Below are positions 9,131 through 50,126 of a DNA stretch of 64,000 nt, piece after piece (positions within the stretch are counted from its first letter, which is position 1; each line of letters starts with the position of its first letter). The notes below the pieces were generated by a model. The model had not been told where the DNA came from, made no database searches, and was given only the letters and a program-made list of their open reading frames with translations. Source of the stretch: Rhodamnia argentea (taxonomy: Eukaryota; Streptophyta; Magnoliopsida; Myrtales; Myrtaceae); NCBI RefSeq assembly GCF_020921035.1, contig NC_063157.1, positions 24,011,015 through 24,075,014 on the forward strand. Direction: 5' to 3'. Made by a program: the position numbers and the translations under genes.

Positions 9131-11003
9131 ATGGCTTCCTCTTCCTCACTCCTCAGACTCGTCTTCCTTATCCTCCTTTCTCTCTCAGGTTCGTTCTCTC
9201 TCTCTCTCTCTCTCCTTCCGCCGGGTCTTTATCGCTTCCCTTTTAGCTCCCTCCTGATCAGCTGCTGCTACTGGTAAGAAAGACCGCTTTTTTTGCGAGA
9301 AACCCGAGCCTCTTCGTCTTTTAGAAAGCGGAAAAGACTCCATCAATGATGGTCGCATGTTGCTTTCTTGGATTGGACTCTAGTAGATTTTCTTCCGCTT
9401 CTCTCTCTCTCTCTCCCCTCTGTGGGAAATGACCGGAGCAAGAATCGGGAAATGAGACTTCTTGCTGCGAGTTTTGCTAAATCTTATCGCCCTTTTTCTT
9501 TCCAAACTTTCCGGGCTTTGAGGGAAAAATTTGGATATAGATTCGCTTCACTTCATATCAGTTATGGGTGTTTTTCCCTTTGGTAGTGCCGAATTCTGGT
9601 GAGAGTGAGACGAGATTTTTTGTCACTAACAATTCCCACATGCCAATGTGATGGGACGAAAGTTAGCATCTTGAAAGGGAAAGTTTGCATCAGTAACTAA
9701 TATGGATGTGTGGAGATTCTGGTTTGACGGTTTGAATAGTTTTCTGGTGATCTCTGTCTCTCCAATTTTACATGTTTCTTTCTGGTTGTGACTCTGTTTA
9801 TTCCTTTGTGTTTCAGATTCTGCAATTCAAATTATGGGCGTGGAATTCGGGATTAATTATGGCCAAATAGCGAACAACCTGCCCTCACATTCTCGGGTGT
9901 CCACCCTCCTTGGATCCCTCAACATCAGCAGAGTAAAGTTGTATGATGCAGATCCTAATGTCCTCCTCGCGTTTTCCAAATCCAATGTCGACTTCATCAT
10001 AGGTCTAGGCAATGGGGATCTCCAGAATATGACCGATCCCGTCAACGCCCAAGATTGGATCCAACAGCACGTCCAGCCTTACATCGGCCAAACCCGGATC
10101 ACCTGCATCGTGGTCGGTAATGAAGTGCTCAACAGCAACAATACCCAATGGATGGCTTATCTCCTCCCGGCGATGCAAACCGTATATTTAGCACTTTCCA
10201 AACTTGGACTGAATCAGCAAGTTGCGGTCACAACCGCGCATTCGCTCAATATTTTAGCTACTTCATACCCACCCTCTGCAGGTGCTTTCAGGCAAGATCT
10301 TGCCGAGTACCTCCAACCCCTGTTGAATTTTCAGGCGCAGATAGATACTCCATTTCTCATAAACGCCTATCCTTACTTTGCCTATAAGGATAATCCGAGC
10401 GAGGTGCCGCTGAATTATGTGCTTTTCCAGCCTAATGAAGGGCTCACCGATCCCTTCACCAACTTACACTATGATAATATGTTGTACGCTCAAATTGATG
10501 CGGTTTATTCAGCTATTAAAGCGATGGGACACACTGATATCAACGTCAGGATTTCCGAGACAGGTTGGCCATCCAAGGGTGATGCTGATGAGGCAGGGGC
10601 TACTCTGGAGAATGCACAGATATACAATGGGAATTTGTTACAGAGGATAGAGCAGAAACAAGGTACCCCGGCTAAGCCATCGGTGCCTATTGACATATAC
10701 GTGTTTGCGCTATTTAATGAGAACTTGAAGCCTGGTCCGACATCGGAGAGGAACTATGGACTCTACTATCCAGATGGTACTCCAGTTTATAGCCTTGGCT
10801 TGCAACGTTATCTTCCAGAACTATATTCAGCGGTTTCAGCGGCTGGAACAAGAGTAAGACGAATTCGTTTCTTGCTTAAGTGATTGGGCAATTACAGCTA
10901 GATTTGAACCTGATGATGTTTTCTTTGGCTCTTTATGTTTTTGCAGGTATTGCCTTTCTTTGTTGTTTTAGTATCCATCACGACATTCTTAATGCTTATT
11001 TGA
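9131..11003 (+). CDS. GH17 glucan endo-1,3-beta-glucosidase, probably GPI-anchored
   Basis: Exons: 9131-9188, 9817-10853 and 10947-11003, all with GT-AG borders and matching phase; 383 residues. Exon 1 encodes a signal peptide (MASSSSLLRLVFLILLSLS). The mature start IMGVEFGINYGQIANNLP is the classic GH17 N-terminus. Catalytic residues are visible as the acid E122 in VVGNEVL and the nucleophile E267 in SETGWPS. The barrel closes at RNYGLYYPDGTPVYSLGL, and there is no X8/CBM43 domain. The short third exon adds a hydrophobic tail (VLPFFVVLVSITTFLMLI), as expected for a GPI attachment signal; reading through intron 2 would instead end in a basic tail at 10883. The enzyme cleaves callose-type beta-1,3-glucan in the wall or at the outer membrane face. 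CT repeats at 9010-9037 lie in the probable 5' UTR. From memory, the likely syntenic counterpart is Arabidopsis At2g27500. Confidence 0.93.
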
Positions 11004-12900: not shown

Positions 12901-14349
12901 TACATATAATGACGCGACACCTACCCATATCTGGGATCGTTTTAATATTGCCGTCGCGTATATTATATGATCCATTTTGAGCTTGTTTGTAATGTCCTTG
13001 TCATGGCCACCAGTAAAGTGCATGGCCAAGAGTCTCAAAATCAATCAAATTAGGAAGAAGCTTTGACTTTTAGGAGACACCCACTACTTGATAGTGATTT
13101 AAATGCAGAAAGTTGTTACCTTTTTTTAGTCATTAGCAATGTAATGATGTTCTGTTGCTTGTGTTTTCACTAAACATTGAAAGGTTTTTCGCCCGTTCAT
13201 TTGCAGGAGATTGCAGAGAGTGGGAGTTGAACTTGACGAATGTACTAGTACGTCTATCATTCACAGTTGAAAAACACAAACTACTTACTAAAGTGTAGGA
13301 TCTTAGGAAATTAACACGCTGATTCACGGCACAACTTATACGATAGATCATTAGATATAGCGGGTCGATATGATCTTTGTACGAACGCGTTCCAAGAGGG
13401 AGAACCTGCCGATGTGGAAGAAGGTTTGAGCTCTTTCGTCGTCTCTCTTTCTCTCGGGGGTGTACGGACTTTACGTTATTTTCACCTCAGTCAATAAGAT
13501 GGAGCGATGAGTTTGTACCGGATAGATTGCGGATTTCTCGCGGTTCGCCTTTTCGATCGTGCTCCTATATGCTTTCTGGCCCGAGTTTCCCTGCAGGTGG
13601 GTGAAGTTGCGATGTCCCTTTAGATGTAAGATTGTCCCTTTTTCCGCCATCCTTGAAGCACTTTGCAACTATGACAACTCGAACACCATTTGGTTATCGT
13701 TCTTCAAATTGCCATACTCTGGGACGATCTGTATGAGATGAGAACCCAAATGCTTCTTGTGACAGGTCGTCGTACGCTCGAGCCTGAGAAATCTCTTAAG
13801 CACGTCTCAGGAGATGCTAAATCAAAATGATTCTGTTGTAAAAGGAAGTATCTTGTGTTGCTTACGGCATTAGTACATCGGATTTTGTCTTCATTTTTTA
13901 ATTAATTTAAGTAAAAATTATATTAAAAATCAAAATTGAGCCCAAACGGCATTGTTTTAGAGACGTCATCTCCAACAAGGAGAGAAAAAATATTTAAAAA
14001 TATCACGTCGGCATTTTCCATTAGCCAAAGTGGACGGAGTCAACAATTGCATCAATTTGATAAGTTTTAAGGCTCGATTGCACTTTTTGCAAGTTTTGAA
14101 ACTCAATTGTACTATTTGTGACACTTATGATGAACATACCCCTTAATTTAATAACAATTATTTTATTTATAATTTTTTTCTTTTGAAGCTTATTTTTATA
14201 AAGTAAATATCAATAATTAATTAAGATATATAATTAATAAATGATTTTGCATTTATGTAATTAATTAAGAATATTCATAAAATAAAAGTGCCGAGATATA
14301 TGAAAAACATGTAATTTTCATAATAGATAATAATCGTTAACCGCAATTA
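12901..14349. other. Intergenic, no supported gene
   Basis: Contains AT-rich DNA and, at 13920-14120, another copy of the degenerate repeat with units such as ctcgattgcactttttg. The 13377-13741 open frames on both strands overlap each other and show no domain, so none is called. Confidence 0.4.
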
Positions 14350-14352
14350 CAT

Positions 14353-16385
14353 CTATCGACGATGTCGTCTTCCTTCATGACCTCCTATTCCGCAATTAGG
14401 TTCTCTTCGGTGCTCGACGGATCTAGTATTGTACCGACGAGGACGAGAATCCGGTTGAGGAGGATGTGTAGATAATGAAGGCATATATTGTAAAAATATG
14501 CCATGCCCGGACGGTACATATCCTATCGTAGGAAAACTTGGATAAAAAGGAGAGAAATCGAACCCATACGAAGCGGGAGAAGGAGCTGGAATCTGCGCTA
14601 GTGGATTGTCGGGAAATGCAAAAGTATATCCCTCGGAAAATGAGAGGGCAAACCGGGCGAATCCCGCATCGAAACCTGTCTGGCCTAACCCTAGGGTGAA
14701 ACCTGGAGCAAAATCTATCGTATGATACTCCAAGGTGTAATGAACGACATCGCCAACTACGTGAGCTCGAGGAGTCCTCCGGGTCGACCGAACAGGCTCA
14801 TGTGGGTCGTCATCATGAGGACCAACGGGTGTTGCTATAGTTGCTGGTTGGGATGGTAGCGGTATTGTTAGCCGTCTCTCCTCATTATGGGCATATATCA
14901 TTGCCCTAACTATCCTCCCCACATATGCCCATGCCCGACAAGATGGACGTAAATTTGTTATAAATAAGATTTGTTCGGCGCCATCACCCCGGTAATGATA
15001 TCACAAGTAACAAAAGTTATCAAATGCCAATAACTTATGTTACTAAAATAAAATTAATGAGTTAAATTGAAAGTATTTTCACGAACCGTTGAACCCATTG
15101 CAGCTCCCGTAATAGAAATCCACTTCCATGTATGTCTATGGAACCACTCCATATATTCTAAATGAAAGTGAAGTTCCTCCGTTGTAAGATCAACATGGAC
15201 TATATATTCGATACATCCGTCCCACATAGCGATCCATCGTCCATGCTTAGCTGCCCAATCTTTCCCAAGTGGCCTATTGTCAATATCATGAAAGGCTTTG
15301 TAATCGTTAGGAGAAGTGGGTATTGGCTGCTGCATACCAAACCGGTGAAGTACTCGGTCCGAATAATGCCACTTAACTATCTAGAAATAAATGAGTGGGA
15401 CACGAGCCCCCCAAATATCTTATCCCTACAAGCGATAATACGGTAGAATCTCCAGAATATTGTCGACGTAGGGCTCCCAAGTAATTTGTTATCATAATAA
15501 AACATATCAAATTAAATTAAGAATTAATTTTAAAGCTAACATTATATTAAACTTATTCGTTGCTATTATTACTTACATATTCGGATACCAATCTATCATG
15601 TTGGTAGCGCAGATGTACCAACATATGTGTGGGGACCTCCGTTGTGTTTCAACCTTGATTCTAACTGCAGAAATAAAAAACATTCAATTTTCATATATTA
15701 TACGCACTGGAAAGAATTAATGACACACGAACCGAAAATGTAATATATCACATACCGACTACCGAAAGGTGTATGTACTAAATAAACATTAATCGTCGGG
15801 GATGGGGAGAAACATCTGAAGCACTTCCACGCCCAAGTCTACGGAACATGTACAAGACCGCCCATTTACTTCGCTTCTAGGTCGGTTGTACGGCATATCT
15901 CCCGATACAACCATTCAAGTGCTTCTGAACCCCAACCGTATCGCGTAGGGATGTTAAGGTTCGCTAGTAGTGGAAGAAACAACAAACTAACTCGGGCACC
16001 TGATTTGTCCGCGAAAATAGATCCTCCTAGCAGATGGAGAATGAATGCCCTAACATGCTGCACTACGATGATGTCATCGACTTCTGCTGGAAGATCTTCA
16101 AAGCGTTGTCTCAACCAGCTTAAACTTATCTGCGTGCCACGCAACCGGACCGAGTGAGCACCAAGTAGATCATAACAGAAAGTGGCCCAATTTACATTAG
16201 TGGGGCCAATAATTGCATATCCATCTATGGGAAACCCCGTAAGCACCGCAATATCCTGCAGTGTGATAGTGCATTCACCTTCCGGCATATGGAAGGTGTG
16301 GGTCTCGGGCCTCCACCGCTCGACTAATGCAGTAATCAAATGTCAATCAAGCTGCACAAATCTCATTATATAAAGGTCATAAAAT
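14353..16385 (-). pseudogene. Plant mobile domain (MAIN-like) protein, degraded
   Basis: At 16339-15866 the frame reads VERWRPETHTFHMPEGECTI, then LQDIAVLTGFPIDG, DDIIVVQHVRAFILHLLGG and LLFLPLLANLNIPTRYGWGS. This is the signature of the plant mobile domain. Just upstream, QLD is followed by TGA where a tryptophan codon is usual (QLDWHLI), so an in-frame stop is present. A second piece at 15335-15054 (FHDIDNRPLGKDWAAKHGRWIAMWDG, then FHLEYMEWFHRHT) and a C-terminal piece at 14922-14353 ending in RYNTRS belong downstream. Gaps between pieces may be introns or decay. Such proteins occur in host genes for silencing and meristem maintenance and in MULEs; here the MULE context favours a transposon gene. 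Confidence 0.75.
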
Positions 16386-16899
16386 TCCGAAGCTTGCAGA
16401 TACGAGACTATGCGTGGATCAAGTTCACATATGTGTAGTATCACTCGCTGACATCTAAGGGCTTCAATCGGATGTATCCGTGAAATGTGACATGAATAGT
16501 TAGTTACAATTTTGATAATGTTGTTACAAAGGACAAATCAACTGCTAAATTCTTCGATTATCTTAACGTCTCATATAGCGTGAGATCTATGTCGGGCTTA
16601 CTCAGTAAGTAGTGAACCATCCTCCGGGCCTGGCCGAATGTAAGTACTATGTACCATATCTACACAATTGTGATATTATAACATTACAACAAATTCACAT
16701 ATGTATGGATAATATGGAACATATGAATTGAATAAATATCACGCAATTGTGATATTATAACATTATAAAAAATATATATATATATGTAATGTAAAAACCT
16801 GGAAAAAAATGAACTTTATAAATATCAATCCAATAATGATATTATAACATTACAAAAAATTCATCAAACTAATTTACATAATTAACACAAATTGTGATA

Positions 16900-19305
16900 T
16901 ACTCTCGGGCCGATCTGTGTGCACAAGTTTTCCTGTTATGCTATGATTTTCCACAGTGTGTGCAATGATTTCGCGAAGTGCTACTGCTCGGCCTTCTCCA
17001 GTCTATCTCATTATGTATTTGTGATGCACGAGGCCTTACTTTCTTCCGAATACGACTCGAGGTTCGGCACTAATGGCAGCTCATCGGGTTCAAGCTCGTA
17101 ATTAAGATGCTCCAACGGATGAAACATGTATCGATAGCACTAAAGGGTTTTATCTAACGTATACCATTCATCTACGTACGATCCACAAACAATGTCATAC
17201 GCTTGACATGCTGTAATTACGTGTAAAAATGGGATTTTCAACCCTTGAAATTTTCACATGTGCACGTTTGCAATTACTATGTGTTTGTGGCCCCTCGAAC
17301 CCCCGGATTTGTCATGTCCAGTTTTCACTTCGAAAATCTTGCTATCGTAGTCGAAACATGTTATTGCATGCCTATTTGCTTTTTGATTGTTGTGCTCGAG
17401 TGTGGCATCTGCAAATTACGTATATTTCCACTCATTGTCTTTCTGCACCTTGTATATCGTTCTTCTCGTATCAAAATAGAGCACCAAATGGTAGAATATC
17501 TTGTCCATCATGGATGCTATTGGCAGACCACGAAAACCTTTCGGCATCCCGTTGACCGATTCAACTAATTTGTCGTCATCGATCTATATCTCCTCCCTTC
17601 ATCATAAGCCTTTGTCCATTTTTCTCTTAGAATTTGATTGCACCATGCATCTGCGGCTGGATCAACCCCCCTTATTTGGCTCATGATTTGATTGAACTTC
17701 TGCCGTTGGTTCGTGTAAACCGTACGTTATAACAATAATTAGTACTTCGCATTCAAATTTTTGAACATTTATTTTCCTGAAATTTACAAATTCAAGAATT
17801 TACCTGTCATCTCAACAAATCTTTTGCATTTGACATTTTTTAATTGTTTATTATAGTTGCTGACAATGTACCGAATGCAATATCTATGGTGGCCATGTGG
17901 AGGATGTCACCGTCTTGTCTCCATTGCTCGTTGAATCCCGATATGTCTGTCTGATATTACACAAATATTATCTCTCTTAGTGACATGTCTTCGCAACAGT
18001 TCATAAATCAAGTCCAATTATCAACAATTTCCCGATGGATTATAACAAATGCCAATGGGAAACTATGATTGTTGTCATCAAGTGAGGTCGCATAAAGGAG
18101 CGTTCCTTGGTATTTTCCGTACAAAAATGTACCATCAACAAATATCACAGGATGACAACTTGCGACGCCTTCAAAGTCTACTTGAAAGTCCAAAACATCC
18201 GGTTGAAAACCGTGCAGCCCTGATCTAGGTTGATGTGATCATCCATCATAAAATGCGAACCTGGATTTCGGCTCTCCATTTCAATCATCCACGTCCTCAA
18301 CCTACCATATGACTCGTCCCAACCTCCAAATTAGGCGGCAATCGCCATTTGTTTGGCCTTTCGGGTTTTACGGTAAGTAGGTTCGAAGTGCAGCTTGTCT
18401 TGAATCTCTGCCATTAGTGGCTTGATTTTGATATATGGTTGGGCGGCGACCATTACTTCTATCCGGCTGCAGAAGTACTTTTGGTCAAGGTGCCGATGAT
18501 CTCGTGACATTTGCGGAGAACTGCATGTATGTGGCCCATTGTACGTACTTATTTTCTAAAACATGCCACCCGATTTAGCAATTGCGGGGAGCCTCCAACC
18601 ACACGGTCCATTTGGATTGCTACACTTTATCACACATTCTGTTTTCTTTATCATATAACTGCGAAAATTTTGATTTCTCCTAATAGAGTACTCTTTCGCA
18701 GCCAACCGCACCGCTTCCTATGATGAAAACAATATGCCAACATCAATTTTTTTTTATGGATCAAATAACATACGGCCCGGCTTGGCTCTTGTATTGTCTT
18801 ACATCATGTCAAAATCGATCTTTGAATAAAGCGATGGATGTACCAACGCCAAAATGGGATTATTGACTTGGGTATTGTAGTAAGCATTCATATTGCTACA
18901 TCCGACATCTTTTTCATCATTGCCATCGGTGTCCATCCAATGATCATCTTCTTCATCATCATCATCATCATCATTATCATCGATCGCTGCGCGTCGATTA
19001 AGCAAATCGCCATCTTCACCAACATTCGAACCTTCCTCGCCTGAATTATCTCTCATTTTGTGTTCGGCTACGGTTGCATAAAACCGTAAAAACCCCGTAG
19101 CACCAAACTGAAGTGCAAATTGCTGGATCATCATAATTATAGCATCATCATGCACCTTTATAATGTCACATGTAACACAATTGCGTATTACAACTGGATA
19201 TCTATACACCACTATTTGAATATCTTGGTTTCCTGTTATATTCAACGTGCTCTCAATCGAAACATGTAACTCATCAAATGTCGATATGTTTGCAATTCCG
19301 AACAT
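16900..19305 (-). pseudogene. MURA-like MULE transposase, degraded
   Basis: The fragment at 18193-18008 reads CHPVIFVDGTFLYGKYQGTLL, then ATSLDDNNHSFPLAFVI, which covers the first catalytic aspartate of the MULE transposase domain (VDGTFL). The N-terminal part at 19305-18799 (QDIQIVVYRYPVVIRN and a run of aspartates before DDEEDDHW) resembles the PB1-like head and acidic linker of MURA proteins. Downstream, 16900-18000 is frameshifted and keeps no complete domain that I can read. In a live element the protein cuts and moves the transposon; this copy cannot. Confidence 0.7.
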
Positions 19306-19550
19306 GGTAGATTGTCCGCCTTTGTAATCAATTCTATATTCAGTTCATACAATTGTACCTCCTTAGTGCACAATCGCAAAAGATGTAGACGACATTACGC
19401 TAAATAAATAAATTAGAAATTATTTCGCACCTACAATTTGGTAAATATTGTCCCGTATACGTTAACAAATTAACATTACCACTATCAATATATCAAATGA
19501 AATAAATGTTCTAGTATAGCCTTAAAGGCTTAGAGAATGTGTAATCAAAA

Positions 19551-20372
19551 TACCCCGAATCGTCCATGGCCAGTTGATTGTGGTTATTTCCTATTTTTTG
19601 GGATTTTTTACAATTTTCTTGAGAGACAATTTGTTAGAAGGGAAAAGTCGTCCTTTTATTAAAGTTGTCGGCCAAAATACCCAAAATCGTCCATGGCCAG
19701 TTGCTTGTAGCCATTTCCTATTTTTTGAGATTTTCACAATTTTTTTGGGAGATAATTTTTTAGAAGGGAAAAATCGTCATTTTTTGAAAGTCGTCGACCA
19801 AAATACCCTGAATCGTCCATGGCCAGTTAGTTGTGGCCATTTCCTATTTTTTGAGATTTTTTACAATTTTCTTGAGAGACAATTTGCCGGAAGGGCAAAA
19901 TCGTTATTTTTTTAAAGTCATCGACCAAAATATCATGAATTATCCATGGCCAGTTGATTGTGGCTATTTCCTATTTTTTAGGTTTTTTTACAATTTTTTT
20001 GAGAGACAATTTGCCGGAAAGGCAAAATTGTTATTTTTTTTAAAGTTGTTGGCCAAAATACCCAAAATCGTTCATGGCCCGTTGATTGTGGTCATTTCTT
20101 ATTTTTGGGGATTTTTTATAATTTTCTTGAGAAACAATTTGCTAGAATGGCAAAATCATCATTTTTTTAAAATCGTCAGCCAAAATACCCTGAATTGTCC
20201 ATGGCCAGTTGATTGTAGCAATTTCCTAATTTTTGAAATTTTTATAATTTTTTTGAGAGACAATTTGCCAGAAGGCCAAAATCGTCATTTTTTAAAATCG
20301 CTTGCCAAAATACCCAAAATAGTTCATGGCCAGTTGATTGTGGCCATTTCCTTTTTTTTTTTGAATTTTTTA
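19551..20372. repeat. Tandem array of a ~127-bp unit, seven copies
   Basis: The marker atggcc(a/c)gttg occurs at 19566, 19693, 19819, 19946, 20074, 20201 and 20325, giving spacings of 127, 126, 127, 128, 127 and 124 bases. Each unit holds the marker, a T-rich centre around gagacaatttg and a segment like caaaataccc. Copies differ by scattered substitutions, so the array is not brand new. Long open frames across it are repeat translations, not genes. It begins about 240 bases from the MURA-like start and may be the MULE's subterminal region or an independent satellite. Confidence 0.9.
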
Positions 20373-21655
20373 AATATTTTTTAGTCATTTTTTTGGAAAG
20401 TTTCTATGATTTTTCTATATTTTCAATCAATTTTCTATTTTTCTAATTTTCTAATAGTCGAACTTTGAAATTATTAAAAACATATTTTTCAGACCGAGTC
20501 AAACCCCGCCCCCGCTTCTCGGGCCATCTGATCACCCTTTTTTTTTTTTTCCAAAAATTCATTTTATACCCCTAAATTTCTTTTTCATATTTTGAAAATC
20601 GTCAAAATGAATATGGACATGTTGCAAAAAAAGTCCCAAAAAATTTATTTTTACGAGATTAAGGTGATTTTTTTATTTACCTAAATTCATAAACATTATA
20701 ACTATTGAGGGTACAAATAATAATCAAATAAATAAAAAAATACTTACGAAACCGCAAAAAATAACTATAACGAAATTTACCTCAAACTATTGAGGGTAGA
20801 CACGTCTTGAATGAAGAGCTCAAACTATCAAGAGAAAGCACCGAGTAAGGAGGCCAGCTTTGCTTTTGTCTCAACTTCTGCAAAATAAAAAAGTCCCAAT
20901 TTACTTTAAACATGATGAAAATATTAGCAATAAAATAAAAACACTAACAACCTATAATAACATCAATAAAGGCACCTAAGAGGAGAGGGATCTCCTTCAA
21001 CGAACAAATGAGGCCGATGAACAGTAAGGGCGAGAAAAAGCGAACGATAATAATGAAAGGATGTCTTAGAGAGAGGGCTTTTTGAGGCGAGACGAGGGAG
21101 GATTCTCCGAGAAAATCTTCGTGAGCCGTGTGAGGGAGAGTGCAAGAGGAGAGAAGGCTCTGAGAGTGTGAGAAGAGGGAGAGTTTTTACTTCTGAAGAG
21201 CTTTTGAGCGTAGAAGAGAGCTTACGAGCGGAGAGAAGAGCTTATGCGGAGATGAGAGTTTTCGAGAAGAAGAGGCCTTCTGAGCGGAGAGCCTTCGACT
21301 TTGATTTAAGCGGAGCTGAAGGCTCTGTAATGCTCGTGAAGGTGCTGCAACAACTTTGCGGGCGCCAGTATCGGCGCCTGATTAAAGATGCCGGTACGCC
21401 TTGAAAATGGTAGGGGCCCCCACCCGCTACAGCCAACACACTTGCAAAGCAGCGGTTTTTGTCTTTGTGCTCGCTGCCTTTTCTCGCTTGGCAGCGATAG
21501 CGCCGAGCGAGAAACCTGCTCGGCGACTTGAGTCGCCGAGAGGCCCTTGCTCGGCATTTGAAATGCCAAGCGGGACCCGATCAGCATTATGACCGTCGAG
21601 CGGACCCCAAACTAGTAAATATGTTTTTTTTAACTTATTTTGGTTTTTTTTTCTC
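20373..21655. other. Intergenic between the repeat array and the CML48-like pseudogene
   Basis: AT-rich until 20960, then a purine-rich tract (21080-21290, rich in gagaga and gagcg) and a GC-rich tract of short inverted pieces (gctcggcgacttgagtcgcc near 21510). The mutually overlapping open frames on both strands have no domain, so no gene is called. The composition could be an LTR leader or the MULE end. Confidence 0.35.
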
Positions 21656-22225
21656 ATAATTTGGAAAAAAAGCCCCATGAAGTCATCATATCCGAGTGTT
21701 GCCGATCCCGTGTATCGTCAATCTTTCTCTTTGAATCTCTCCATCAGTCCTTGAAATGCAATGTTGAGTAACGACATGATTGCTCGGTTAGCCATCGAAG
21801 CATTCGTGTAAGGTGACAACACAGTTCATAGAGTTCATATTGTACCTTCACAATCATTCCACACCTACGCATCCGACATGACATTAATAAGGTGCGTGTT
21901 CAAATCTAGTTCTTCTCAACTCAAGTGGGGCTGAAGGCTAAAGGGGAAGAAGGTGCATACTCGACGAAAGCATCGAAATTAAATTCGTATCCCCTACCGT
22001 TGCTATCGGAACTCGGAGAACGGACGGTGGGATCGCATAGCCTAGACTGTAAAGAGCAACCCTCGGTTCTGTTGAGTCAATTTTTCCGCTTCTATCTCTG
22101 TCGAATCTCTTGAATATGGCATGCGATCACCAATTTGCATGTGAATCATTCTTAATTACCGCATGCAACGGGAGAAGACCCGCAGAAAAACCAAGTATGC
22201 TGCTTTGCCTCGACTAACGTCCAAA

Positions 22226-22409
22226 TTATTTGGAGCTTAGTACTGGAATAGTGATTGATGATGAGTCAAAGACATTGCTTCAGAATTTTGTGCCCACTGA
22301 CCAAAAACCAAAGCTTAAGCCGCTAAACGAAGTTGAAACTTACCCTCCATTACCCGATGCAGCTCCACGAAGCAGCGAACTCTTTGGGGCTAGAAACGGA
22401 TCGGCATAG
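22226..22409 (+). other. Unidentified open peptide stretch inside the CML48-like pseudogene
   Basis: The plus strand reads an uninterrupted peptide including GIVIDDESKTLLQNFVP, then PKLKPLNEVETYPPLPD and SSELFGARNGSA before a stop. The composition looks protein-like rather than random, but there is no start codon at its head and I cannot name a family. It lies where an intron of the CML48-like gene on the other strand would be. It could be an inserted gene fragment. Confidence 0.25.
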
Positions 22410-22805
22410 GTAAATTTTAGCGCAGACAACATCCCTTTATTTTTATTTTTTTTTTCTGTCTTTCGATTTCTTGGCGGCCTTTGAAAGTGACACGGGATGG
22501 ATAAAATCCGTGAGCTTGAGACCTTTTTATGCTAATGCACCACTCAGTAATGAAACCAAGTCGAAGTCAAATCGCACAAACCCGACCATGAATCAACCAA
22601 ATCATATATAAGAATTAAAAAAAGAATGAACACCCAACAAGTCGAAGAGGGTCATTGAGATTCTTGAACAGGAACATGAGCAACCGAACGGTTCTGATCT
22701 TGAACCTACGATACGACACGAAACGGAGAGCCTGTTGCAACTCTTTCTCGTCGATGTACCCGTAGACATGGCCAAATGAAACCGGTCCGTTGACCGGGCG
22801 CACGA

Positions 22806-25620
22806 TTACATAATTGTCGGAACCGGCGGTTCCGAGCTGGTTCCGACCTGTTTAATTTTTAAAAAAAAAGTTCGGGGGTTATGCCCGGTGGGGAAAGAGC
22901 CGTTGGGCTCTTCCCCACCCCAACACCCCCTCCTCCACCCCCGGCGGGCCCCCCTCCCAAAAACAACGGCTCTTTGGGCCGTTGCATGTGCCAAAAAAAA
23001 TTATTATTTTTAGTTAAATAACTCTCGCCATCTCTATAAATACCCATCCTCCCCCTTTCATTTTTATCACAAATCCTCTCAACAATTTTCTCAAATTCTC
23101 TCGGTTCTCCCAAATTCTCTCAATCCGCTCAATTTTCTCAATCCCGCCTCAATTTTCTCAATCGGATTTCCGATCAATTTTCTCAAAAATGGCAAGTGGA
23201 AGCAGAAATCTCGAAAAGGCCAAAATGGCGATGGAAGATTCTGAGTATTCTATTCCTAGATATGATCCTCCCGAGTATGCATATTGGGAAGCCGACGATG
23301 ATAATATCAACGTTGTTCCCATTCCGAACGTCGAGCACGTCCCAACACAAGAAAGTCTTCATCCTCCTACTGGTGTTGAAGAAATGTCGACGGCAAATGA
23401 GCCGGAACGGAAGGGCCGAGAGAGTACATCCGACTTGTGGCTGCACTTCGATAAGGTATATGATGAAAGCGAAGGTAAGTATAATATAAATTGTAAATAT
23501 TGTTCGCAAACATACAAATTTACGAAATGAGACGGCTACGGAACATTCCGTCGGCATCTGAAAAAAAAACATCCAACGCAAGCGGGGATCGACACTAGGC
23601 AATAATAAATTTCCGGGTACGCTAATTCTAATAGTCATCCTTTATTTCGTTACACTGATGCACTTTATAAACAAACATTAGCTAAATATGTTGCCCCCGA
23701 TTATGCTCCGTTTACTACTAGTGAAAATTTTAATTTGAAATATTTGATAAATACTGCGTTGGTTCCGCAAGCACCAACTATTCCAAAATTTACTATTAAA
23801 CGCGAACTTTTACATCTTTATAAAAAACAAAAAAGATCTTTAGCAAATTTTTTGCGAAATTCAATGGACATGTGCATTGAGGTAGCGATATTTGGAATGA
23901 TCCTTGACAAATTCATTCTTATATGGGTGTCATGTGTCCTTGGATAGGTGACGATTGGACCATTCAAAAAAGACTTATTGCATTTCGAGTTTTTGATGAA
24001 AAATATTCGGTTCATAATATTTATAGAATAATTAGGCAAGTTTTAGAATAATATAATTTGATAAATAAAGTATTTTTAATTGGTTTTGATAATGCCGCCG
24101 TAAATACCGCTTCTATTCCCGAATTAGAAAATATTTGCAAACCCTCTTTTGGCGAACAATTTTTTCACATTAGATGTGCTTGCCATGTTTTAAATTTATG
24201 TGTACAAGATAGTTTACGAACTATTGAGACTTATCTCGCCCCAATAAAATGTGCAATTAAATTTTTATAGACTCGTGCCCATTTTATGAAAGCATGAAGA
24301 AAACTTTGTAAACAATATGGGAGAATGGCAAAAAAGTTTCCAAAACATATTCCGACTCGTTGGAATTCTACTTACGAGTTGCTTCGTCAAACTTTTGATT
24401 ACAAAGATTTATTATGTATGTTTATTTTACAAAATATTCCCGAAATTACTTTACTTCCGCAACATTAGGACGTTTACAAAAAAAATTAGATTTTTTGAAA
24501 AATTTTAATGATGCTACTAATACTTTATCTGGTATTTATTATCCTACTATGCATTTATTTTTAATAGAGTGTGTTAATATTGATGGTGTTTTTAGTGAAT
24601 ATGAAAAAGATACTAAATTAGATCGGACTATTTTAGTAATGCGAGAAAAATGGTTACATTATTATTTCAAAATTCCTCTTGTTTATTTAGTTGGTATTTT
24701 TTTTTATCCACGTATTAAATTAGATGGTTTACTAGATTATCTGAATGTGTATTATTATGATTATTTACATTTGAAAGATTCGATAGATATTTCAAATATA
24801 CAAGAAGAAGTTAAATAATTTATAGTAGTATCATATGAAACATTTTATACTATATATGGTTTAAATGATTATGGATCTTTACAATCTCATGCCTCACGAA
24901 GCGAAACCGGTAGTTCACTTAGTAGAGGGTACAATATACTTAAGAGTAGACAAAAAAAAAGGGGGGCAACAGATAGTATTTCTGAATTAGAAAAATATTT
25001 AACCACTCAATTTGAGTTTTGTGATGTCGAACATAGTATAGATTTCCAAATCCTAGAGTGGTGAAAGAGTTACTTAATCGACTACCCAGTTCTCGTCCTC
25101 ATCGCTCGCCATATATTAGCAACCCCTTCATCAACAGATTCTGTTGAACAAACATTTAGCGCTGGAGGATTAGTTTTGGACTCTCGCCATTCAAGATTAA
25201 ATCCGAAGTTTGTAGAAGCTCAAGCTTGTGCCGACGATTGGATGAAGGTTATATTTCGACACCAATAACTCTATCGAAAACACGAATTTTTTAGTGAGGA
25301 TTGTGAAAATACCACCACCATGGGTACCACAACCGGTAACAATGATTGACAATGATGTAAGTTGGGGTTATCAAAGGTAAAAGAACTACATGAGTTTTGA
25401 TTCTTCTATCCCCAAGAAGATATGTACGCACTTAATGATAATTCATTAAGTTCGAGCTCATTCCTCCTCTCTCTCTTTTTTTCCCAAATTTTATTACAAT
25501 GTACAATTTGATTATAATTTATAATTTATAATTTATTATGCTTTTTTATTATTTATTATTTTAAAAATTAAATTTAAAAAATGGAACCGGAACCGGCCAC
25601 GTCTATGTACCCGCTCCTAT
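22806..25620 (+). mobile_element. Dead hAT transposon inside the CML48-like pseudogene
   Basis: The element carries one degraded hAT transposase on plus. Its probable ends are mirrored: the left has tcggaaccggcggttccg (about 22817) and the right has ggaaccggaaccggcc (about 25582-25598), consistent with imperfect terminal inverted repeats of a hAT element. I could not identify an 8-bp target duplication with confidence. The CML48-like exon 2 stops right beside the left end and exon 1 lies beyond the right end. Confidence 0.75.
23189..25268 (+). pseudogene. hAT transposase (RICESLEEPER-like), degraded
   Basis: The start at 23189 gives an acidic head and then a BED zinc finger, CKYCSQTYKFTK, a stop, and DGYGTFRRHLKKKHP (C-x2-C and H-x4-H). 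Downstream pieces in several frames read NFLRNSMDMCIEVAIFG, GDDWTIQKRLIAFRVFDEKY, FFHIRCACHVLNLCVQDSL and IPTRWNSTYELL. These are the standard blocks of plant hAT transposases. The C-terminal dimerisation region is recognisable only in fragments around 25070-25265. At least eight stops or shifts make it non-functional. Confidence 0.88.
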
Positions 25621-25689
25621 CCCTATCGCCCATCTCAAAGCTCCGAATCGCAGAATCGAGTCCTCTAACATTGCCGGGGGTGACGTGAT

Positions 25690-25850
25690 CGATTCGGGCC
25701 GTCCAAATAAAAAATGGAAGGCCCGGATTGATCCACATCACTTTTTTAAAATTTTAAAATTTTTTGCCAAAAAATTTTCCCTCATTTCAAAATTTAATGT
25801 GGATGAATCCGGACCGTCCATTTTGAAATGGACAGCCCGGATCCTTCAAT
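25690..25850. repeat. Foldback MITE next to CML48-like exon 1
   Basis: The left arm gggccgtccaaataaaaaat and the right arm (attttgaaatggacagcccg) are inverted copies, with matching inner pairs around atccacat and atgtggat. It would form a long hairpin with an AT-rich loop. No coding capacity. It separates the hAT element from the CML48-like exon 1. Confidence 0.7.
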
Positions 25851-26320
25851 ATCACCCCTCCCTTTATGGTAGGGGATCCGGTTCCTCGGGTCGGTCCCCG
25901 GCGGGAACCATGAACAATACTTGGACCCGAATGACGATGACGCCGACGACCCCGTACGGAGGCCGAGGTGGATACTATTGATGCTATCGTTGGTCGTAGC
26001 CGTAGCCGTAGTCGTAGGGGTCGTGCAAAGCCAGAGCGAAGGGTGTGCAAGATTGATGAGGAGGAGGAGGCCGGTCGTAGCGATCGCCGTAGGAGGACGC
26101 CATGAACGGCGCGAGGATGGCATTCCGGTTGAAACTCGAAGAAGGTTCGACCGGGATTGCGGGAAAGAAAAGGTTGGAGAGTGATTGAGAAATGGAGGAA
26201 GGTGACGACAAAGTCACGACTAAGACAGTTCGACACGTTTATTTGCGGGCAAATACGTGTCAGAGATGGCGGCGATTAACGTCGGCTATTCTCGCCATAT
26301 TTTCGAGTTTACCTTTATAT

Positions 26321-26781
26321 AGAGAAAATTTCAAATAATAATCCAAAATCCTCTCTTTTTTTCAAATAAGGACCTCAAGTAAACTTTCTCGCCAAGGCGC
26401 TGGCAACCCCGCTTGCCTTCGCCGTCCACCCCCCTTTCCCCTAGAGGTGGGGCGGCGACCACAAGCAAGAGGGCTACACTCCCGCCTATGTATGTTGTCT
26501 TTTTGTTTTTTAAATTTTTTTGTTAATTTTTGAGAAAAAAAATAAAAGAAAAGTTTAATAAAAAATAAAAAGATCAAATAAGTAAAAAGATGAAAATGCC
26601 CTTGAAATCGGGCCCTTTATTGACATTTTATGGCCACTTCGGGTCATTATTTGAAATAATATTCACTTCGGACCCTTGTTTGAGAAAATGAGAGTACTTT
26701 AGGCTCTTATTTAAACATGGTTCACTTAGAGCCCTTATTTAAGAAAATGAGAGGATTTCGGGTCTTTTTTTGAAATTTTCC
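26321..26781. repeat. Mutator-type MITE, family C, copy 1
   Basis: Inverted ends read agagaaaatttcaaa on the left and gggaaaatttcaaa as the complement of the right. Flanks cctttatat and cttttatat form a 9-bp target duplication with one mismatch. Inside are repeated phrases like cttatttgaaa and a GC-rich centre near 26395-26480. Related copies lie at 40471-40695 and, truncated, at 42165-42295. Confidence 0.75.
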
Positions 26782-26790
26782 CTTTTATAT

Positions 26791-27619: not shown

Positions 27620-30128
27620 ATGGAGACGGCGGCGAAGGTGGTGAGCGAGGCGGAGGAGCTCCCCAAGACCATCGTCCGGCGCGTCGTGAAGGAGAAGCTC
27701 TCCAGGTGCTCCGACGACGGCGACGTCGCCCTCCACAAGGAAGCCCTCCTCGCCTTCTCCGAGAGCGCTCGCATCTTCATCCACTACCTCTCCGCCACGT
27801 AAGCATCTCTCCCCCAACCACCAACCCCCCCCCGCGGCGCCTCTCCCTCTCTGGTTTTGTTCTCTAGGGTTCTTACTATGTTGACTTTAATAATAGGACG
27901 CAGGGTTCGTCGAGGTTTCCTTTCGTTTTTTCTTGGTTTCGATTTGCAGTGAGATGCCGTAGTTCTCTTCTGGAACTTGCGAAAGTTCTGCTTAGTGAAG
28001 CTCCTCCTTTATCATTTTCAGTTTCTGCGATATTCGACTGTTCAAAATTTTTTTTTTTTTATCTTAATTCTTGACGTAGCTTGACACCATGAGCAGCCCT
28101 TGATGAGCTACTACCTTTGAAATTAGGGATATTTGGAATGCTAAAATTGAAGAGCTCGTGTCTCTTTGCTGGTTCTGGAATTAGACACAATTTAGTATTG
28201 ACACAGTTCGTTTTTTCACTTTATGGCAGAGCGAATGACATATGCAAAGAATCGAAAAGGCAGACTATTAATGCTGATGACGTATTAAAGGCGCTGGAGG
28301 AGATGGAATTTCCCGAGTTCATAGGCCCTCTTAGAGCGTCCCTTGATGGTTAGTAAGATTTGTAGTCCTGAGTTCATTACTTGCTTCTAATGGAAGCTAC
28401 TTGAGTACGATTGCTGAAAATATGGCATATTTGCATTTTATAATCTGAGCAATATGAGGCATGATGAGAACCTTCTGTCTTTCTGGGAAATTTTGTTAGC
28501 ACCGCGGGCTGTGTTTGTACACGTTACTTATGCTTTGGCATCCTATACCTGCAGAAGGAATTGGTGTTATTGGAAGGAAATTATGTCTGAAGAATGGATA
28601 ATATTTGGTCGACTTATCAGATGGTGGAATTTTTTTTTTTAATTGTTTGTTAGCCCATCTTCCTAGAAACGTGACAAATTTGACGTGATTTCCTTGTGTT
28701 TTGATGACTTCTACACTTGCAACTGCATAGGGCATCATTTTTATCCTGTCAGTGGTTTATCCAGTTGACAAACTGAACTACGTTTTTTGCTACAGCCATG
28801 AACGTATAAGATTTTCCCAAAAGTTAAGATTGTTAATGCCGTGTATTGTTGGTCAAAGCTTTAGTGTGCAAGAACTCTGCAATTGTATCCCCTATGCTAG
28901 AGCAACAAAGATTTCGATATTGCATGCCATAAATATGGTTCTTATGCAAGTTTCCAGTGTCTTCTTGGTTTGCTATTGACATCACTAATATGTTTCTTAT
29001 GCAAGTTTCCAGTGTCTTCTTGGCTTGCTATTGACATCACTTTGTTTTCATATTGTGCTATGATTTCCGTGCAATGCTGGGTCCTCTGCTAAAATATCTT
29101 TTTTAATGTAATATTAGGCAAATCAATTAATTTAGCACACAATTTCTTAGTTTTTCCTACTCTTGTCGGTCTCCAGTGTTCAAGGTTTGTGCTTAAATTT
29201 CCGTCATTTGTCTTGCAATTGGCGGATGAAGCGGTGACCGCAAGGTTATGGTCTTCATTGGTTTTGTTTTTCAAATAATTACATGTGGTGGTTCTTAACT
29301 GCATTGCTGCTGAATTCTATGCATATCTTTGAAGTGTCTTGGGATGCTTAGCTACAGGATTTTGCTGATTTTTGGCTTGTCATGTCAAATTTTTCTGCTT
29401 TCGGATGATAAGAAAAGCGGCACAACTTCTTTTTTCTTGATTTCCTAGAGTTCAGGAAGCAAAATGCTGGAAAAAAGGAAAGGGCTAAGGCAAAAGAATC
29501 GATGAAGAAGAAGATGGAGGGAGAACCTTCACAAGCAAAAGGAGATGGTGAGAGAGAGAAAAATGGAGGCACTAGCAATGGCGCTGAAGAAGAAAGTGGA
29601 ACTGTGGTTAAAGAGAAGGCTAAGGCCAAAGAATCAGCCAAGAGAAAGATGGAGGGAGATCCTTCCCAAGCAAAAGGAGATGGCGAGAGAAAGAAAAATG
29701 GAGGCACAAGTAATGGAACTGAAGAAGAAAGTGGAACTGTGGTTAAAGACAAGTCTAAGGCTAAAGAATCGACCAAGAGAAAGGCAGAGGAAGAACCTTC
29801 TCAAGCAAAACGAGATGACGAGAGAAAGGAAAATGAAGGCACTAGTAATGGAACTGAAGAAAGTGGAACTGTGGTTAAAGACAAGGCTAAGGCTAAATCG
29901 ACCAAGAGAAAGACGGAGGGAGAACCTTCCCAAGCAAAAGTAGACGACGAGAGAAAGAAAAATGGTCTCACTAGTAATGGAACTGAAGAAGAAAGTGGAA
30001 CTGTGGTTAAAGACAAAGCTAAGGCCAAAGAATCAACCAAGAGAAAGATGGAGGGAGAACCTTCCCAAACCAAAGAAGGTGGCAAGAGAAAGAAAAATGT
30101 AGGCATTAATAAGGGCTCTGAAGAATAA
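27620..30128 (+). CDS. NF-YB11: Histone-fold POLE3/DPB4-like protein (NF-YB11 type) with repetitive C-terminus
   Basis: Exons: 27620-27798, 28230-28348 and 29449-30128, with GT-AG borders and consistent phases; 325 residues. Residues 1-100 are the H2B-like histone fold: ELPKTIVRRVVKEKLSRC, then HKEALLAFSESARIFIHYLS across intron 1, ANDICKESKRQTINADDVLK and MEFPEFIGPLRASLDEFRK. This is the plant POLE3/NF-YB11 signature, not that of canonical NF-YB subunits. Family members pair with an NF-YC-like histone fold in DNA polymerase epsilon, and some also work in transcription. Arabidopsis NF-YB11 (At2g27470, from memory) is about half as long; here residues 122-325 are a Lys/Glu-rich repeat tail with several KRK clusters that could serve for nuclear import or DNA contact. 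Low-complexity genomic expansion is the likely origin. DNA replication or chromatin roles are inferred from the family. Confidence 0.92.
29514..30125 (+). repeat. Coding minisatellite, 135-bp unit, ~4.6 copies
   Basis: Each unit encodes 45 residues from MEGEPSQAK through SNGTEEESGTVVK to KAKESTKRK. Units cover residues 122-166, 167-211, 212-254 (two residues shorter), 255-299 and a partial 300-325. All length changes are multiples of three, so the frame is kept. The DNA copies are close to each other, which suggests recent expansion. Confidence 0.92.
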
Positions 30129-32026
30129 AGTTTAATTGAGGTCGACGTCTGAGTGGGCGAAAAGTTATTTGACTGGACGAATTACAGGTTCCTATCAGCA
30201 AGCAGCAGCATGCAAAGTGAGGCATCCAATGGAAGAAACACATCCCATATATCATCTACTCAGGTTCATAAAAGTCAAGCTTCATGATTTAGGGCATGCT
30301 TAGAATGAGCTCACTCCATCCAAGAACGGTTCAGCATATAAGAGCATCTTCTATCAGTAACTGATGCTAGTGGATACTTTAGAACAGCTTATATGTCCAG
30401 TTCGTAATGATCAGTGGAGTGGTGCCGAGTGGTGTTTGGTAAATTGTATTGTTCTGGCTTCATATGTTTTCATTAATATTATCTGGTTCTCGAACAAGTA
30501 ACTTTTATAGCTCATGGATACTGTGATCTTGCCCACTTTCTGTTGCCTGTGTTGACCATTATTTTTGCAACGTTGATCGTGTATCTCGTGGCTTCACCCT
30601 GCTGTACTCACTGGTTGGTAAGAAGGTTGGTTCTTTTCGTTGTTCTTGACTTAAAAGGGTTTCTTTGCCAGAACTTGTCAGTAGTTTTTGTTGAGATAGG
30701 CACGGCCACAGAGGCATGTTGTTCAAATGGAGAACTCCTCAATGCTGGAAAGTATTCCTAGATGGTTTTATAGTCTCCTGGTGAATTCCATGCCTTGTAG
30801 GTCAAGGAAGGCAGATGCTAGCGGAGCTTTTGCATGTATCGTTGAGACCCGTCTCCAGGAAAGCCGATGCTTATTTGCGAACACCTCATCATTCTCATCC
30901 TTGCACGATTGGGCAAAGATCAGACATGAGCAGCAACCTCTGCTAGTCAGTCTCCGAGGCTTGCAAAGTTCTTGAAACATGGAAAAGATACCAACCGGCA
31001 TTCTAGTTAGGCATTGTCTGCCTTCCAACCAGTATTTCTTGGCAGGTTGAAGAAAGAGGAAGAATGTACCATTGTGGGATTCCTGGTCTTGTTACTCTGT
31101 TTTTGTTCATGGTGACCTTACGCCAAAGCAGGAAGACAGCAAAACGTCATGGTTGGTTCGCCAAATGATATAATTTTCTTTAGAAAGCTCGAAGAACATA
31201 TAATTTCCCCATACACTGCTGCACCCACAGAAATCCTTTTGAGAGAACTGAAACCCGAATTGGTAATCCTCTTAAGTTCCAACTAGCATGGAAGCTTATG
31301 CGCAAGTAAGGAAGAGAGAGCCCACTTCCGAATGCCATTGTCGCCTCCGGCTTTTTTTTTTGTCAAAACCTCCGGCCTTTCTTTGCCGTGTAAATAAGAT
31401 TTTAGTATGCATGGGTATTACATGTTCTCATAAATAATCAAAGCTCAAAGCATCACGGCTATAGCTAATAGCTGTGCTACCAAATCGTCGGTCCAAAACT
31501 TAAAATGAGTGATGTCAGATGATGAGTAAAAAATAATTAAGTTGATTAATCAATTGAAGAAACGTATATATTATAAACTATATAAATAAGAATATCGGTC
31601 TTTATATTTTTTTAAGGAGGGATTCGAAACATTGGTCATTGGTCAAGTCGAAGTTTATAAATCTAAAAAACCAATCCTATGTAAAATCAATATATCGAAT
31701 GCTGGAATGTTTTGCTTTGAGGATGCTTAGTCAGCCATATATATTATACGATCGACAGGAACCTCGTATAACATCCTCAGAAACAATAAAACCTGATCCC
31801 CCATCATTTTCTGTCTCTGTCAGTTGTCAAACTGAAACGTTCTTCTTCTTCTTCCTTTCTCTCTCTAGAATCCAGCAGAGCGGCACAGTGAAGTCATCCT
31901 ACGACTGGTGAAGACTGAGGAATCAAAGTAGGCGTTCGTCTCTCTGCTCTGGCGTGCATCAACCCTAAAAAAACGATTGATTTTTGGGGGGGTGACGGAA
32001 AGGAGTCGAATTTGAAGCTCACTCCA
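30129..32026. other. Intergenic between the POLE3-like and amidase genes
   Basis: The first part is probably 3' UTR. No open frame with a domain is present. A TATA-like string (ctatataaataag) at 31577-31589 and a CT-rich stretch at 31840-31870 lie upstream of the amidase start and could be its promoter and leader. In Arabidopsis one extra gene sits between the corresponding neighbours (from memory); I see no trace of it here. Confidence 0.4.
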
Positions 32027-38800: not shown

Positions 38801-40001
38801 GATATATCATACTCCACATATAAATGAAGAGAGTTTGGCAGAGCTCAACGTAATCTCAGGGACTACAAGGAAACCTATGATTATTATTCTAAAAGACTAC
38901 AAGGAAACATTTGAATATGATTCTAAAAGATGTCAAGCGTCTCATGGTACAGATGAAAGAAACCAGCCTACTCCATGAACAAGCAAGGAGAGAATACGCA
39001 GGAGAACTAAACAGGGGTCAGTTGCGACTGCTAACTTTTCTTACCCAAAATGCTACAACTAGTCCTCAAATGTCATGGCTGGCTTATTCTGAAGATCAAT
39101 ATCAAAGCCCTCCAATTGTGACTACCAAAAACTACCTCGAAAAGTTTGTAGTCGCCCACAGTTTAGACTTTCAATAAGTGCATCCGGATTTTATAAATCA
39201 TAAAATTTCCTGAACAGATAGAAACAAATGGCAGCAATGTTCTCCGTTGTCAATCTACAGTGCATACCTCTTATGGCAAGATGCTAAATGAGACTACTAT
39301 TCTAAGCCGATAACTCGAAATTCACATAGGCAATGCAGTGGGAAGAAAAGTAACCATCACAAATTCATAACCCAGACGCCACACCACAATTAGCGAATGG
39401 CCGCTCATAGCAGATACATCAAATAAAGTCATCTCCAACACATAATCGGACAACACTGAAAGGAGAAAATCGCAATTCCAAGAATAGCAACGGTCGATGC
39501 GGCAACAAGAACAGTGAAAATGACAGATTCAAGGGTCAAATCCAAAATGCACCTGGCGCTAGGAGCTCGCGTGGGCACCTCGGGCTCCAACTCGACGGGC
39601 AAACCCAGGAACCCGTTGAACCGGTCGAAGGTGACGTGGGCCACGTGGCGCACGTTGGTCGGCCACCCGATCTCCATCGCGCAAATCTCCCTCCGGTCGC
39701 TCTTGCACGCGACGAGGGACTTCCTAAAGATGGCGAACAGCAACGCCAGCAGCGAGAGCTGGTCACCCTCCCGGCCCTCCCCCTCCTCCTTGCAGCCCTC
39801 GCATGCCTCCTCCTCCTCCTCCTCCGCCGCCGACGCGGAGTCGTCGCCGTAGTCCGCGGCGGCCGAGGAGGGCGGCGAGGGCGGGGCGCTGAGGGCGGCG
39901 TCACCGCCGGGGCGGGGGGCGCAGGACAGGGAGGAGGACGAGGAAGGTGGGGAGGCCGGGGAGGACGGGAAGTGGGAGGGCGAGTGGAGAACCTCGGCCA
40001 T
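35881..40001 (-). CDS. ROP GTPase-activating protein with CRIB domain (RopGAP)
   Basis: Exons in transcription order: 40001-39553, 38420-38300, 38110-37991, 37226-36996 and 36564-35881; all phases agree and the product is 534 residues. Residues 1-85 are Ser/Pro- and Glu-rich. The CRIB motif is at about 110-135 (IGWPTNVRHVAHVTFDRF, then NGFLGLP). The RhoGAP domain spans about 160-330, with the arginine finger R196 in AEGIFRI and later AWFRELPTGVLDPLS and MDARNIAMVFAPNMTQ, closing in DPLTALMYAVQVMNFLK. It speeds GTP hydrolysis by ROP GTPases at the plasma membrane, restraining polar growth and stress signalling. The C-terminus carries a 43-residue duplication not usual for the family. The start follows an upstream in-frame methionine at 40151 that I rejected because the added peptide has no family features. 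Counterpart At2g27440, from memory. Confidence 0.93.
35983..36240 (-). repeat. 129-bp coding tandem duplication in the RopGAP tail
   Basis: Residues 416-458 and 459-501 are two copies of a 43-residue unit starting KCETEAKMFD and ending TDFEKGPTF plus four residues. The copies differ at only a few positions, for example TTKTGIQEDG against PTNTGIQEDG, so the duplication is fairly recent. It lies outside the CRIB and GAP domains. Confidence 0.92.
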
Positions 40002-44807: not shown

Positions 44808-45359
44808 CTAGGCGAGGAACACCTCGAGCTCCGACCTGTTCTCCTGCTCGATCACGTCGAGGAACACCGGGTCGACCGTCACGTGACTGTCCATGCGCAC
44901 CCGGAAGCGGTGGTCCCACCACAGAACCCTCGCGACCCCGGCCACGTCCAGCTTCGCGTCCAGCACCATCTCCCGCCGCGCCACGTCGGCGAAGAACCTC
45001 CCCGCGCGGTGGGCCAGCTCGACCCCGTCGAGCCGCGCCGGGAGGCGGAGCAGCTGGCAGGACCTCGGCGGCTGGGAGCCGGCCGCCACTTCGGCGGAGC
45101 CGAGGGGGGAGCCGTCGTAGAGGATGGACATGGTGGTGGAGGAGTAGTGGACCGGGGCGACGTTGGGGTTGGTGACGTGGACGGTGAGGAGGAGCTCGGC
45201 GTCGAGGACGGGGAGGTTGAGCTTGAAGGAGGTGAGGCTGATGGAGATGAGCTGGAAGGTCGGGTCCTTGGGCTTGGCCAGGAACACGGCGGTGGCGGCG
45301 GAGGCGGATGCCGCGCCGATTAGGGCGGAGGTCCACGACCATTTGACCTTTTTGCCCAT
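44808..45359 (-). CDS. LEA_2 (late embryogenesis abundant group 2) membrane protein
   Basis: A single exon of 183 residues from the preferred start at 45359 (MGKKVKWSWTSALIG); an upstream in-frame methionine at 45395 would add 12 residues. A hydrophobic helix (SALIGAASASAATAVFLA) near residues 8-26 is followed by the beta-sandwich LEA_2 domain: FQLISISLTSFKLNLPVLDAELLLTVHVTNPN, given here only as the region 34-65, then PVHYSSTTMSILYDG, GSQPPRSCQLLRLPARLDG and VLWWDHRFRVRMDSHVTVDP. It ends with EQENRSELEVFLA. Relatives sit in membranes and are linked to desiccation and defence responses; no precise role can be assigned. The coding sequence is strongly GC-biased compared with its surroundings. 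Confidence 0.88.
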   Translation of the reverse strand: MGKKVKWSWTSALIGAASASAATAVFLAKPKDPTFQLISISLTSFKLNLPVLDAELLLTVHVTNPNVAPVHYSSTTMSILYDGSPLGSAEVAAGSQPPRSCQLLRLPARLDGVELAHRAGRFFADVARREMVLDAKLDVAGVARVLWWDHRFRVRMDSHVTVDPVFLDVIEQENRSELEVFLA

Positions 45360-45395
45360 CGGATCTCGCGGTATTTGCTTCGTGGGAGAAGACAA

Positions 45396-47158: not shown

Positions 47159-49125
<1,967 letters not shown>

Positions 49126-50126
49126 ATTAGCGTTTGCCCTCCCGCCGATTGTTCGGATTTTGCTGCATTCTTTCATTCGACGACACCATTTGGACGCCGG
49201 TGCATGATTTTGACTTGGATCGATATTCTATAGGGACAATAGTCACGTGTCGATACCATCAATCGATGTCCTCTTTTTTTTTTTGGTTGCTTCGAGGCGT
49301 AGAAATTAATATCTTTCTGTTGATTTTTTGTTTTGTTGTTGTTGTTGAATCCATCTTATGAGTGGATGCCCTCGGCAAGTGGGAGATATACAACTTGTAA
49401 GAGATGAATTGGATAATTTCTTGTTGCTTTATATTTCTGTTTGGCTTTTATTGGTATTTTATTTATTGCCATTTCCTGAAGTTCTGTTTTTTGTTCCTTT
49501 CAAAAAATACAGAAAATGAAACCTCAAAAAAAAAAAGAAGAAAAAAGAATCGGCCAAGTTCTCTAGATCAACCCTGGAGCCGGACCGGATCAGTAGGGTT
49601 GGTTTTAAGGTCTATAGAATCGGGTTTCAAATCCTAGAATTTGATAACCGAACCTCTTAATAATTCTATCAATTAGAGGCCCATGATTAGAATTTGCGTT
49701 TATAAAAGCATTGGCAAATTTGATATTAGAGTGGAAGTTATGGGGTATAACTTGGAACCTAGAATCACCAGGTGGAAACATGTCCAGTTCCAAAATTTTC
49801 AAGGTAAGTATGAGGAGAAACCTGTTTAGATGAGTAAGTGTTATATCTCGGGTAGGTGGAATCTAAAATCTTCAGGTATGTTTTAAGTTTTAGTTGAAAT
49901 CTGAAATCTTAGTGCAAGTTGAAAACTTTTTTGAGACAAAAAAAAAACAAAGTGTCGGATAAAATTGAAATTAGACGTGAAATTGGGATTTTTACTGGGA
50001 ATTAGTCCTCCAATTTATATGTATGCCCCCGCTACAAGACGTCATTGTCGCCTCCGGCATAAATCATCCCACTGCTATTGCCCACCTTCCCTGTACTCGG
50101 GCGAGACCTGCCTGGTCGGATCTCCG
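49126..50126. other. Intergenic between the peroxidase and S40-like genes
   Basis: The 3' UTR of the peroxidase is followed by AT-rich DNA; at 49560-49810 there are phrases such as ggaacctagaatcacc and ccggaccgg that recall ends of hAT-type repeats. No supported coding frame. Confidence 0.4.

Follow-up and report, generated by a model that had tools for sequence, protein, structure and literature searches.

Exon remnants and neighbouring genes

The window, the 64,000-nucleotide stretch of DNA analysed here, lies on contig C8 of the 346.7-Mb Rhodamnia argentea genome (74 contigs). Minus-strand translation revealed collinear remnants of a CML48-type penta-EF-hand gene at 26103-21676, flanked by DPB4 and GH17 genes that both look intact (Table 1). 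All five exons of the intact paralogues were represented, with introns kept and exon 1 split into three pieces. A sequence-only reading of the window had named four remnants in order on this strand (FPPGTDP, GYIDEKELQQAL, FDRDRSGKID and KD-stop-RYTGSATLGYDDFM), and all four were recovered by translation. It had missed exon 2 (22389-22344) and the micro-exon CGMIVK (21864-21846), and its starting point for the gene, 21660, falls 16 bases inside a Mutator-like element whose border is at 21675. The FPPGTDP stretch is encoded at 25907-25887, in a different frame from the N-terminal start, and GYIDEKELQQAL begins at 22761.

Table 1. Positions in the window of the gene remnants, inserted elements and flanking genes
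Feature	Position	Strand	Remarks
Flanking DPB4/POLE3-like histone-fold gene	27620-30125	+	Open frames; head-to-head with the ruined gene
Pseudogene exon 1, piece A	25887-26103	-	Starts with ATG; P/Y/G-rich N-terminal region, to FPPGTDP
MITE inside exon 1	about 25653-25885		Relatives genome-wide
Exon 1, piece B, AIRSFEMGDRDRSG	25606-25651	-	First EF-hand loop; ends with first hAT target duplication
hAT target duplication, copy 1, CGGGTACA	25606-25613	-	
hAT element	22763-25605	transposase remnants on +	2843 bp; perfect 8-bp target duplication
hAT target duplication, copy 2, CGGGTACA	22755-22762	-	
Exon 1, piece C, IDEKELQQAL...NDPLRL	22639-22754	-	
Exon 2, PKEFAASWSCIG-stop-WR	22344-22389	-	TAA at 22352-22350; donor present
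Exon 3, AIFKRFDRDRSGKID...FDAFVE	21961-22120	-	Two frames; contains FDRDRSGKID; donor present
Micro-exon CGMIVK	21846-21864	-	Both splice sites kept
Exon 5, GLMERFKEKD-stop-RYTGSATLGYDDFM	21676-21750	-	TGA at 21720-21718; cut at 21675
Mutator-like element	14147-21675	-	7.5 kb; inserted in exon 5
Flanking GH17 glucanase	9831-10880	+	One open frame; PF00332, 5.4e-86, positions 2-304 of 306

The exon plan, taken from the splice sites of the paralogues on C10 and C7, has a first exon that starts with the N terminus and reaches TRKI, a second reading PKEF...WR, a third reaching NFIE, a CCLTVK micro-exon and lastly exon 5; since the window remnants fit this plan, five exons are present here, the first in three pieces. 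The C10, C7 and C11 proteins each matched the same three pieces of the ruin, all correctly ordered and oriented, at E 3.5e-10 to 7.7e-4. The same searches gave a few weaker rows within the window (E 0.06 to 0.8), some of which aligned one EF hand with another, and the reversed window, used as a control, yielded no row at E <= 1 with any of these proteins. Pfam searches of five pieces of the ruin gave EF-hand matches (up to E 10) in three of them; none reached its curated cut-off, and exon 3 scored best (7.5e-5). By its alignment with the paralogues, and by the match of the C7 protein to ALG-2 structures (3e-28), the ruin is identified as EF-hand, penta-EF-hand sequence.

Small lesions separate from the transposon insertions numbered at least six, with stops present in exons 1, 2 and 5. 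Piece A of exon 1 contains two TAG stops (25986-25984 and 25977-25975), followed by a frame change before FPPGTDP; exon 3 carries a frame-changing deletion at about 22009; and exon 2 seems to start one base short compared with the paralogues. These stops and the frame change in exon 1, the deletion in exon 3 and the TGA in what had been called exon 4 (exon 5 here) had all been read correctly from the letters. Exons 3 and 5 no longer have an acceptor where the paralogues have theirs, an AG surviving one base further into exon 5, and the exon 1 donor is unlike that of a related fragment on contig C5.

The exons of the DPB4-like gene, placed by eye, lie at 27620-27798, about 28230-28348 and from about 29439, and two of them, joined by eye, matched CBFD_NFYB_HMF (4.1e-10). 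No other close DPB4 copy was detected in the genome, where the rows outside the window were of 28-40% identity only. In the tail of this gene (29483-30131) a 135-bp unit is repeated 4.9 times in tandem, within a single open frame. Between that gene and the ruin, at 26321-26783, two 64-bp arms in inverted orientation are separated by 335 bp; they are 78% complementary and perhaps belong to another MITE. Further genes in the window encode a CRIB/PBD protein (39432-40331), an LEA_2 protein (44811-45401), part of a peroxidase (48700-49122) and a senescence regulator (49935-50882).

The Arabidopsis counterparts have published locus codes: DPB4/NF-YB11 is At2g27470 (PMC6801657), CML48 is At2g27480 (PMC5983762), CoaE is At2g27490 (PMC9328179), and a list of GH17-family genes includes At2g27500 (PMC4033164). 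From this numbering we infer the Arabidopsis order DPB4-CML48-CoaE-GH17. In Rhodamnia, CoaE was found on C7 instead (3 rows, consistent with one gene); GH17, DPB4 and two CML pieces had no match in the 19.5 kb around it, and frames of at least 30 residues from that 19.5 kb had no match in window positions 8001-30500. The conserved block that the sequence-only reading had described is thus partly supported: DPB4 and GH17 do flank the ruin, so that two of the three expected neighbours are in place, but the match is partial because CoaE is not between the ruin and GH17. The ruin resembles Arabidopsis CML48 in its place next to DPB4, as judged by locus code, and differs from it in the displaced CoaE and in being non-functional, with three transposons and many small lesions.

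Transposable elements in exons 1 and 5

The element interrupting the first EF-hand loop of exon 1 is a hAT element: it is flanked by short terminal inverted repeats inside a perfect 8-bp duplication, and its broken plus-strand frames matched the hAT dimerisation domain (PF05699, 5.8e-12) and, at a score short of the cut-off, an RNase-H fold (PF14372, 2.5e-5). The window copy departs from the superfamily pattern in being decayed. Its family is large; among the best 40 of 1051 genome candidates, which were scored, matches longer than 1.5 kb were 85-89% identical. The terminal GCCATGTCTA recurred at, or at most 16 bases from, the projected end in two of seven other copies (L031 and L037), the remaining copies being truncated or different there. 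Dating the insertion by family divergence was dropped, as the nearest copy may not be the source.

The MITE has relatives across the genome (best 40 of 120 candidates scored). One of them, L050, showed by eye a 9-bp target duplication, which suggests a Mutator type; this is one of ten copies inspected, the flanks of the others being too uninformative. No target duplication was recognisable around the window's own MITE copy. Both elements had been placed between exons 1 and 2; they are present, but that placement is wrong, because in the intact C10 and C7 genes exon 1, which begins at the N terminus, does not end until TRKI, beyond both insertion points, and both elements accordingly lie within exon 1.

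The hAT element had been taken as what splits the gene. It is one of three elements, and the Mutator-like element cutting exon 5 had been overlooked. When 1 kb spanning the end of exon 5 was used as a query, 95 rows came back; none of them, apart from the self-match, begins before 21681, and many begin at about 21675. The window aligned from 21675 down to 14147 in three of the four longer copies (L060, L061 and L062), and in the fourth, L063, down to about 19540 only. In L060, L061 and L062 the terminus recurs in inverted orientation and closes the element, and 9-bp duplications were exact in L060, 8/9 in L062 and, once the border is moved by one base, 7/9 in L061. The element in the window resembles Mutator-like elements through the terminal inverted repeats and 9-bp duplications of its relatives, and differs from them in carrying a plant-mobile-domain gene (PF10536, 3.9e-38, at 15869-16342) and in the lack of its far end. 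Neither the right (far) terminus nor the rest of exon 5 was found within the window; four 9-mers of the left junction recur between 8000 and 21650, and none is a fitting target duplication. No domain was recognised at 18802-19344, the one frame of the element tested for transposase. A 127-bp satellite (19546-20359) is internal to the element, and its extent seems to vary among copies. Of the 10.8 kb that separate the ruin from GH17, the element accounts for about 7.5 kb.

Related copies and the branch of the gene

The genome was searched exon by exon, and only the best candidates were scored. A joined query of the ruin's pieces gave 31 rows: six in the window, one on C5, three on C10, four on C7 (two loci), one on C9, two on C11 and a further 14 elsewhere at E 0.0013 or worse. 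A DNA query over exons 1C-5 gave two matches, itself and C5. With these queries, among the best candidates scored, no intact CML48-type copy was found in the 346.7-Mb assembly. As for the intact paralogue that the sequence-only reading had proposed looking for, the genes on C10, C7 (10791157-10792981) and C11 do look intact, but they resemble CML49/50, sharing with the ruin the penta-EF-hand family and the micro-exon plan and differing from it in the micro-exon itself (CCLTVK or CCLIVK versus CGMIVK). Because the intact-looking genes are of this type, the genome probably has no working CML48. Partial CML49/50-type copies also occur, at G000:C9:23407239-23407454 (with two internal TAA) and G000:C7:10776095-10776226.

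The C5 fragment is a 344-bp part of exon 1 and intron 1, at 4806-5149 of L021 (G000:C5:25768500-25778400). It has a stop of its own, adjoins an unrelated gene with a ribonucleotide-synthetase-type domain, and had no exons 2 to 5 near it in the 9.9 kb examined. The fragment is contiguous across both the MITE and the hAT sites and therefore serves as an empty-site comparison for the window. Between the two copies 18 of 54 codons differ, 13 of these in residue or by a stop. Changes at residues conserved among the paralogues were more numerous on the C5 side than in the window copy (by eye, in small numbers), which hints that the window copy may have stayed functional longer than the C5 fragment.

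The assignment to a branch was made with provisional reference sequences for Arabidopsis CML48 and CML49. The paralogues were 72-82% identical to the provisional CML49 core and 41-44% to the provisional CML48, whereas the ruin barely separates the types: its pieces were 56.7% identical to the provisional AtCML48 and 54.2% to the provisional CML49, and 50-56% identical to the paralogues (55.5% to C10 and to the intact-looking C7 gene, C7a). The motifs RSFE, LRL-PKE, CGMIVK and YTG-ATL of what we take to be the AtCML48 sequence are common to the ruin, which presumably also agrees with it in STE/STQ-R and in two one-residue insertions. The shared CGMIVK and RSFE and the two insertions would favour CML48 over CML49/50, as a lead and not as proof, because the references are provisional. 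Position next to DPB4 separately supports the CML48 name.

Probable mode of loss and its meaning

Taken together, the locus is very probably a CML48-type gene, head-to-head with DPB4, that was inactivated in place by three transposons and by small lesions. The hAT element inserted into exon 1 within the first EF-hand loop, a putative Mutator-type MITE into the same exon just upstream of the hAT site, and the 7.5-kb Mutator-like element into exon 5; to this damage come the stops, the frame changes and the lost splice sites. Loss in place, as the sequence-only reading had proposed in preference to a stray copy, is supported by the remnants of five exons with their introns, by the intact-looking neighbours, by the well-defined hAT insertion and by the failure to find an intact CML48-type copy among the best genome candidates scored.

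The existence of the C5 fragment means that pieces of the gene have moved, and the ruin could itself be a stray duplicate that decayed after landing, with the true CML48 elsewhere or relocated. This seems improbable, since it is the window copy that has all exons and introns and stands between two neighbours expected from the Arabidopsis codes, whereas the C5 locus holds partial exon 1 and intron 1 beside an unrelated gene, and no intact copy came to light among the candidates scored. About equally improbable is that the lesions are polymorphic or specific to this assembly, with a working allele in other haplotypes. The data do come from a single assembly in which no second allele was found, but the hAT element is itself broken in several frames, and this decay, together with the at least six separate small lesions, suggests an old loss.

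Continued function of the gene, with the elements spliced out or a shortened protein made, is the least credible reading, to the point of being nearly negligible. Exons 2 and 3 do keep their donors and the micro-exon both its splice sites, and several exon stretches are well preserved; against this, the stops in exons 1, 2 and 5, the frame changes, the two lost acceptors and the missing C terminus could not all be avoided by splicing.

Inactivation in place being the preferred reading, the ruin is most likely a unitary pseudogene, and an ordinary if well-preserved one of its kind: it carries lesions, no intact copy was found among the genome candidates scored, and it would represent the ancestral, once-functional locus. 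The gene presumably worked until some lesion killed it, and CML49/50-type genes would suffice without it. Plants commonly carry such pseudogenes, and the significance of the case is therefore modest; it does offer a clean, well-delimited example of a gene lost in place, in which the insertions can be set against an empty site within one genome.

A broader reading, in which this lineage and perhaps a wider clade no longer have any member of the CML48 branch and retain only sensors of the CML49/50 type, is conceivable and is put forward tentatively. Literature on CML48 with Eucalyptus or pseudogene concerned, by title, maize, chrysanthemum and a soybean survey, with no CML48 loss recognised among these, and we found no paper on calmodulin-like gene loss in Myrtaceae. 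If the branch is indeed lost, the lineage would be a natural knock-out for CML48, whose function is poorly known. For Arabidopsis CML48 a review table shows nothing but question marks beyond the EF-hand count (PMC5983762); a species that lacks the gene could therefore help in asking what CML48 is dispensable for.
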